From Planctomycetota bacterium (GTDB lineage: Bacteria; Planctomycetota; Planctomycetia; Gemmatales; Gemmataceae): a stretch of DNA of 33,568 bases. The DNA is taken from positions 1-33,568 of the forward strand of contig JAPLNF010000311.1 of the NCBI GenBank assembly GCA_026692965.1. The letters run 5' to 3'. A program made the position numbers and the translations under genes. Positions 5,701-7,557 of the stretch are shown here, one piece after another (the first letter of the stretch is position 1; each line of letters begins with the position of its first letter). The notes under the pieces are model-generated. The model worked only from the letters and a program-made list of their open reading frames with translations, was not told the DNA's origin and searched no databases.

Positions 5701-7338
5701 ATGAATTTAACTTTACCCCAGCTATCCTTATCTCACTGGAACTGGTCCACGCTAGCCCCCCTCATCTTCGTATTGAGTCATGGTGTAAATGCGTGGAGTG
5801 AAGAACCGCGATTCATTGACCATTCGCTACTGATCGCTCCGGAGTATCCCTGTACTTGGCCGAGCCATCCGTTCCCGCGATTCGCGATCGTCCATCAACG
5901 GAAGATCGGCCCCGAGTCGGCATACAACATTGACACATTTCTGATCGACGGTAACACCGGAACGCAACTCGACGTGCCACCGCACTCGGTCGCCCGGCCC
6001 GAATTAAAGAGAGAGAAATCAGGCCCACTCGGTCTGTCCTACACCGACAAAATCGAACCGTGGCAGTTCGGCGGCGAAGCCTGTGTCATCGATGTGCGCG
6101 ACCTACTGGATAAGGCCCCCAAGGGAATCAGCCCCTTGGTGACGCCGGCGCATGTCGAACGGTTCGAGAAACAGCAGCGGAAGATTCGATTTGGCGACGT
6201 TGTTCTCTTCCGCAGTGATTACTCGGATAAATACTATCGTCCGCTCCCCGAAGGGCGGAGGTTTATCGCTGATATTCTCGACCGCAAGGCCCCTGGTTAC
6301 CCGGACCCAGATCCAGACTGCATGGAGTTACTCGGCAAACGCGGTGTGCTCGCACTCGGAACAGACAGCGCTAGTATGGGGCCGTTACCCGATCTCGCGG
6401 AGCCAACACACTATGCCGGCCTCAAGTACGGCATGATCTGGACCGAAGGAGCAACGAATCTCGGCGAACTCCCCTCAACTGGTGCGTTCTACTGCTTCCT
6501 CGGACCGAAACACGAAGGCGGCCCCTACAGCGAAGGGCGTGCGTTCTCAATCTCGGGTGGCGATTTGCCCAAACGTTTGATCGAATCGTGCCAAAAGAAA
6601 CGGGCCATTGACCTGTCGCCAACATTGTCGCCAAAATTGCCGTTAACCTCCCCCGGCATCGGCACGGGAAACCATCGCCAAGCCTACCTGAAGATCGATT
6701 TTCTGTACGCGAAGTATCTCGACATGTGGCATCACGGACATTACATGGATTCGATGGCTGGCACGCATTTGGTTCCCCCGGCCTACTCGCTTCCCGACAC
6801 GGATGAACCCGTTGGTTACGAACCAGAGGTTCGCGGCTGGCTGGAACAGTACGAGAAAAAATATGGCAAACGCGGGTCCAGCAAAATGACGACTGAGAAA
6901 GTTCCGCTCGATTGGACTTCCGGCGAAGCGCGCGTGATTGATGTCCGGACTCTAATTGGAAAGACCAAACAACAAGATTGGCCAGCATCGCCAGAAATCA
7001 CCGCCGAGCACATTCAAAACTACGAACGCAGCACACGCAAACTTCAGGTTGGCGACGTTGTGATCTTCCAAACGGGGCACAACGATAAACACCTCAAGCC
7101 TGAACCTGCAGACACAAAGGGAATTCGCTGCATCGCTAGTGATGCACCCGACCTCGGCGGCGTTGACCCTCGCCGGGCGCAGATGACCTACTGGGCACTC
7201 GGCAGTAGGGAGATGGTCGGAGTTGAGATGTTAGTCAACGTGGACAAGATCCCATCAAAAGGTGCGTACTTCTTATTCGCCGCAGTCAAGGTTCGTAACT
7301 GTCACGGCGGCCCAGGGCGAGCCATTATCTTGCATTAA
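5701..7338 (+). CDS. secreted two-domain cyclase-family protein
   Basis: 545 residues; GAAGGAG lies 7 bases before the ATG, and a signal-like hydrophobic segment ends near residue 31. Two cyclase-like (kynurenine formamidase-type, PF04199-like) halves are visible: about 60-300 and 330-545. Matching blocks are EACVIDVRDLL / EARVIDVRTLI, FGDVVLFRSDYSDKYYRP / VGDVVIFQTGHNDKHLKP, and GAFYCFLGPK / GAYFLFAAVK. The family metal motif is HxGTHxDxPxH. Domain 1 reads N85-TGTQLDVPP-H95, keeping D91 and the last H. Domain 2 reads M352-AGTHLVPPA-Y362, keeping only the GTH histidine. Each half lacks metal ligands that the other half partly keeps. The family hydrolyses amide or ester bonds in cyclic or formyl substrates. 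Activity here is uncertain. Confidence 0.8.
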   Translation: MNLTLPQLSLSHWNWSTLAPLIFVLSHGVNAWSEEPRFIDHSLLIAPEYPCTWPSHPFPRFAIVHQRKIGPESAYNIDTFLIDGNTGTQLDVPPHSVARPELKREKSGPLGLSYTDKIEPWQFGGEACVIDVRDLLDKAPKGISPLVTPAHVERFEKQQRKIRFGDVVLFRSDYSDKYYRPLPEGRRFIADILDRKAPGYPDPDPDCMELLGKRGVLALGTDSASMGPLPDLAEPTHYAGLKYGMIWTEGATNLGELPSTGAFYCFLGPKHEGGPYSEGRAFSISGGDLPKRLIESCQKKRAIDLSPTLSPKLPLTSPGIGTGNHRQAYLKIDFLYAKYLDMWHHGHYMDSMAGTHLVPPAYSLPDTDEPVGYEPEVRGWLEQYEKKYGKRGSSKMTTEKVPLDWTSGEARVIDVRTLIGKTKQQDWPASPEITAEHIQNYERSTRKLQVGDVVIFQTGHNDKHLKPEPADTKGIRCIASDAPDLGGVDPRRAQMTYWALGSREMVGVEMLVNVDKIPSKGAYFLFAAVKVRNCHGGPGRAIILH

Positions 7339-7483: not shown

Positions 7484-7557
7484 TGTCCCCGACAGGAGTC
7501 GAACCTGTAACCTTCGGCTTCGGAGGCCAACGCTCTATCCAATTGAGCTACGAGGAC
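7484..7557 (-). tRNA. tRNA-Arg (anticodon CCG)
   Basis: Full cloverleaf on the minus strand: acceptor GTCCTCG/CGGGGAC, D arm GCTC...GAGC, anticodon stem TTGGC/GCCGA with loop CTCCGAA (anticodon CCG, reading CGG), T arm ACAGG-TTCGACT-CCTGT and discriminator A. 74 bases; CCA is not encoded. Its 3' end faces the GC-rich left part of the window. Confidence 0.95.

Follow-up and report, generated by a model that had tools for sequence, protein, structure and literature searches.

The gene at positions 5701–7338 of the window, i.e., the whole 33,568-nucleotide stretch of Gemmataceae DNA analysed here, encodes a protein with two cyclase domains of the PF04199 family in one chain. This protein is likely a single-chain PF04199 pseudo-dimer, in which the first half (half 1) has a working, altered metal site, the second (half 2) acts as scaffold and hairpin donor, and the whole is probably an exported hydrolase. 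Compared with characterised enzymes, the two halves probably form a fused, asymmetric pseudo-dimer with a modified active site close to a type already known to be active in MGS0169.

PF04199 enzymes are usually homodimers; here the two protomers would be joined in one chain. Half 1 would provide the working site and bind a divalent metal through N85, Q89 and D91 together with H237 and E249, with H95 as the general base, as in MGS0169, an esterase of the QQDH type. Half 2, as a pseudo-protomer, would complete the scaffold of the dimer and contribute its swapped beta-hairpin (M342/H344) to the substrate pocket of half 1. The probably exported enzyme would hydrolyse a lactone, ester or amide, and the product would enter a hydroxy-acid/acylpyruvate catabolic pathway, which is encoded alongside in relatives. 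The family offers a clean example, and a widely conserved one, of a homodimer that turned into one specialised chain: judging from the sequences, one half appears to keep the chemistry, and the other decays yet is retained under selection.

Domain organisation

PF04199 is the sole Pfam family above cut-off and matches the protein in two stretches (3e-27, 96 bits for the whole protein). In the PF04199 search of the genome, half 1 scored 60.5 bits and half 2 36.4 bits, against a curated cut-off of 23.1, which supports the pair of cyclase-like domains proposed in the first-pass annotation. The assignment to PF04199 is based on the profile; some members are experimentally active although they lack the classical motif (PMC5341072). 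A Pfam match to PF00877 (0.034, under the cut-off) was taken as chance. The N-terminal hydrophobic stretch, recognised by inspection only, suggests that the protein is exported. The features of the gene are as follows.

5701–7338, + strand: coding sequence of the two-domain PF04199 protein, 545 aa (88 aligned full-length homologues, PF04199 profile)
5701–5802, + strand: probable N-terminal export signal or hydrophobic helix, aa 1–34 (AF2 helix 12–32 with low pLDDT; inferred from inspection)
5803–6570, + strand: cyclase domain of half 1, approximately aa 35–290, presumed catalytic
5953–5985, + strand: proximal motif of half 1, N85-TGTQ89-L-D91-VPP-H95
6409–6447, + strand: distal site of half 1, H237...E249, equivalent to KynB His161/Glu173 (invariant in 88 homologues)
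6601–7335, + strand: cyclase domain of half 2, approximately aa 301–545, degenerate
6688–6750, + strand: beta-hairpin of half 2, strands 330–337 and 342–350, with M342, H344 and H347 (AF2 strands)
6754–6786, + strand: motif of half 2, M352-AGTH356-L-V358-PPA-Y362
7116–7117, + strand: approximate point at which 81 nt (27 aa) are missing in frame compared with the aligned homologues, between residues 472 and 473 (DNA alignment, pLDDT)
7189–7227, + strand: distal site of half 2, Y497...E509, His replaced by Tyr (Y497 in 84/88, E509 in 88/88)

Conservation of the motif residues

The two-domain protein was matched in 21 of the 99 sampled relatives. Altogether, 98 encoding stretches were confirmed in genome contigs, of which 80 were kept, and the alignment comprised 88 homologues, the window copy counted among them. 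The gene was also present at three loci titled Verrucomicrobiales, Actinomycetota and Kuenenia, titles which may be misassigned.

The classical HxGTHxDxPxH is found in neither half: half 1 reads NxGTQxDxPxH and half 2 MxGTHxVxPxY, and the residues quoted earlier for both (N85, Q89, D91 and H95; M352, H356, V358 and Y362) are correct. In half 1, Q89, D91, H95, H237 and E249 are each invariant among the 88 homologues, and position 85 is Asn in 83 and His in the remaining five. In half 2, H356 is kept in 81 homologues and replaced by Asn in seven, position 352 varies (Met 63, His 11, Thr 8, Gln 4), position 358 is mostly Val, and position 362 is always Tyr or Phe. The first-pass annotation had asked whether the replacements persist in planctomycete homologues. 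Indeed they do, and since they are conserved across the 88 sequences, they are fixed features of the family. Chance or a sequencing error behind the motif changes is ruled out by the same conservation. The first-pass annotation did not name H237 and E249, which complete the set of half 1.

Single-domain planctomycete relatives nearly all carry the HHDH-H-E set, so the motif change is specific to the two-domain family. Deviating single-domain proteins were also observed. One PF04199 group (L125, L130, L137) has Q-H-D-H with a distal Glu replacing His (E-E, not H-E). The single-domain PF04199 protein of the source genome itself (L001:1321–2064, contig C17 of G000) reads HTGTHVGVAAH, the metal Asp being replaced by Gly and the distal His by Asn.

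Comparison with known enzymes

In the kynurenine formamidase KynB, one zinc is bound by His50, His54 and Asp56, His161 and Glu173 belong to the other site, and His60 has been proposed as the base (PMC4243253). The fold is alike, and the equivalents of Asp56, His60, His161 and Glu173 are present in half 1. In contrast, KynB is a binuclear zinc enzyme of separate chains, and its His50 and His54 correspond to Asn and Gln in half 1. The six-residue set of KynB is therefore incomplete in both halves: half 1 lacks the first two residues, and half 2 has only the equivalents of His54 and Glu173, without the Asp, the general base and the distal His. No NCBIfam family, the curated model for KynB included, matches the window protein. 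Half 1 thus keeps four of the six site residues, with a substitution of a type known elsewhere, and half 2 keeps two of six; invariant columns number 40 in half 1 versus 15 in half 2. The loss is asymmetric, not reciprocal as the first-pass annotation had proposed.

A close parallel to half 1 is MGS0169 (PDB 5IBZ), with Gln127-Gln131-Asp133-His137 together with His286, Glu299 and Arg87 (PMC5341072). It is an esterase stimulated by Mn2+/Mg2+, with a kcat/KM of ~2e5 M-1 s-1 on p-nitrophenyl acetate, and it is impaired by alanine substitutions at these residues; the H137A protein was insoluble (PMC5341072). Half 1 shares with it the Gln in place of the second His, a first residue other than His, the Asp/His pair and the distal His/Glu; five of the six positions of N-x3-Q-x-D-x3-H plus H237 and E249 are identical. 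The differences are that MGS0169 has a single domain, forms dimers or a tetramer, and has Gln at position 1, where half 1 has Asn. The fold match to 5IBZ has E-values of ~4e-8 to 3e-7 at ~15% identity, and L161, a single-domain protein from a planctomycete that has N-x3-Q-x-D-x3-H, matches 5IBZ at 4e-23. No assayed Asn-Gln-Asp-His member was found. The trans-dienelactone hydrolase of Pseudomonas reinekei MT1 is said to have the same modified Q-x3-Q-x-D-x3-H motif as MGS0169 (PMC5341072).

Isatin hydrolase (4J0N, 5NNA, 5NMP) is the top PDB match by sequence and by fold, and shares the hairpin-swapped fold. Unlike the window protein, it is a homodimer with two equal Mn sites of the classical HxGTHxDxPxH type. 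The isatin hydrolase motif HxG[T/A]HxDxPxH is missing in the window protein (membership also takes GLQC/GLAS), and at the distal position the protein has Glu, like KynB.

A changed metal or substrate, one of the possibilities raised earlier, is plausible for half 1. Another, a binding protein without catalysis, fits half 2 and does not fit half 1. It is unlikely that the protein as a whole serves in binding or regulation without catalysis. The absence of both early His in half 1 and the degenerate state of half 2 speak for this explanation, but D91, H95, H237 and E249 are invariant, the QQDH precedent is active, and in relatives the gene lies within a catabolic operon, flanked by genes for a hydrolase, dehydrogenases and a transporter.

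Predicted structure and the substrate pocket

Confidence is high for both AF2 models: that of the window protein has a pLDDT of 90.6 and a pTM of 0.89, and that of a full-length relative (L034) 94.7 and 0.91. Isatin hydrolase, 8F9X, KynB and 5IBZ were the Foldseek matches in the PDB, all of them single-domain chains. Judging by homology, the two halves of the chain would be expected to adopt the hairpin-swapped dimer arrangement.

In both isatin hydrolase (Trp59/Trp61) and KynB (Val40/Val42; PMC4243253), part of the pocket lining comes from the partner, namely its residues at positions -10 and -8 relative to the first motif residue. Furthermore, the pocket of MGS0169 is lined by the hairpin of the partner and takes from it Phe117, at position -10 (PMC5341072), and the same arrangement is predicted for half 1. 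In half 2, these positions are M342 and H344, and the hairpin with M342, H344 and H347 is predicted, by this analogy, to line the half 1 pocket.

A composite metal site could be built in this way if H344 replaced the lost His50/His54-type ligand of half 1. It lies at -8, where its equivalents Trp61 of isatin hydrolase and Val42 of KynB enter the partner's pocket, and it occurs with N85 only (76 of the 83 homologues with N85, none of the five with H85). The replacement of a lost ligand is therefore weakly possible. Nevertheless, it is improbable: the position is Phe in seven N85 homologues, only a handful of evolutionary events lie behind the pattern, and MGS0169, for which no partner His is reported, is active with Q-Q-D-H. 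Just as doubtful is the wider reading in which such a donation of H344 by the decayed half made the fusion indispensable for catalysis.

The composite site first suggested would bring D91 and H95 of one half together with H356 of the other in a single pocket. Beyond the retention of H356 noted above, very little speaks for it: H356 is Asn in seven homologues, half 1 already has H237 and E249, and in the KynB dimer ~30 Å separate the two active sites (PMC4243253). By that homology, H356 would be expected in the other pocket, at about this distance from the half 1 site. Such a site is not required and is probably wrong because half 1 holds a full alternative set close to the active QQDH...H...E of MGS0169. 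Since E509 and H356 are kept, half 2 may have a residual metal site of its own.

Duplication and asymmetric divergence

The domain tree included 96 domains, with single-domain PF04199 proteins sampled alongside. All first halves formed one clade (support 99) and all second halves another (97); the two clades are mutual sisters, split from the sampled single-domain proteins with a support of 100. As each half is monophyletic and the two are sisters, this topology shows, at the level of sequence, a single tandem domain duplication within one gene in an ancestral planctomycete, followed by asymmetric divergence. The internal duplication proposed in the first reading is thereby confirmed. Fusion of two different families is ruled out by the same tree.

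Intermediates survive in deep branches (L015, L018, L019 and L144), where half 1 is H-Q-D-H and half 2 mostly H-H-V-Y/F, with Asn in place of Val in half 2 of L019. It follows that the His54 to Gln change in half 1 and the loss of the Asp and the base in half 2 were early, and the His50 to Asn change came later. Purifying selection is strong in both halves, with an overall dN/dS of ~0.06 (Nei-Gojobori).

A second double PF04199 protein is encoded in another planctomycete (L143; G200:C1:3335500–3338200). It is likewise a fused tandem with one complete half and one decayed half, but the domain tree gives it a separate origin and the order is opposite to that of the window family, half 1 being decayed (NHVA) and half 2 complete (HHDH). 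With the intermediates and this independent fusion, decayed in the opposite half, the order of losses becomes testable. The literature search found no described tandem PF04199 protein. In a Gemmataceae MAG from Baikal, a second partial copy of the C-terminal part of the cyclase was observed 3' of the full gene (L035:5702–6097).

Operon context and function

At least one of twelve recurring neighbours was found at 51 of 81 loci. Upstream, these are a GntR/FCD regulator on the opposite strand (19 loci), a D-2-hydroxyacid dehydrogenase (34), DHDPS (8), Mqo (5), Ldh_2 (20) and an FAA hydrolase (17), which usually abuts the cyclase gene. Downstream, there is either an MFS transporter resembling galactonate or 4-hydroxyphenylacetate permeases (21 loci) or an Nramp transporter (27), together with an SDR (42), a fused PDH-type E1 (33) and an E2 (27). 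A kinase-like gene occurs on either side at nine loci. The two-domain cyclase also flags a planctomycete catabolic operon.

This catabolic operon in homologues suggests an exported hydrolase of a lactone, ester or amide; our best guess is that it feeds hydroxy-acid catabolism. In the source genome (G000; a 3.3-Mb assembly of 360 contigs, ~74% complete), the window copy lies outside the operon, with MFS-SDR-E1 on contig C8 and the end of E1 plus E2 on C320. This operon part (L163 and L164) has no adjoining cyclase, and its MFS gene is in two overlapping frames.

Deletion in the window copy

In the window copy, 81 nt are missing in frame from half 2, past residue 472. The gap takes out a helix of half 2, its 27 residues being present in every other aligned homologue, and pLDDT falls below 50 at aa 465–473 of the model. 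It could be a recent event or stem from faulty assembly. Compared with a relative of the same genus, divergence is 0.37 at synonymous and 0.023 at non-synonymous sites, which indicates that the gene has been under purifying selection. A pseudogene was rejected given the absence of stops and the dN/dS of ~0.06, though the 27-aa deletion is peculiar to the source genome. Given this deletion and the separation from the operon, the window copy may have ceased to function in this strain. Shortly 3' of the cyclase gene, a tRNA-Arg gene (anticodon ccg) lies at 7484–7557 on the - strand.
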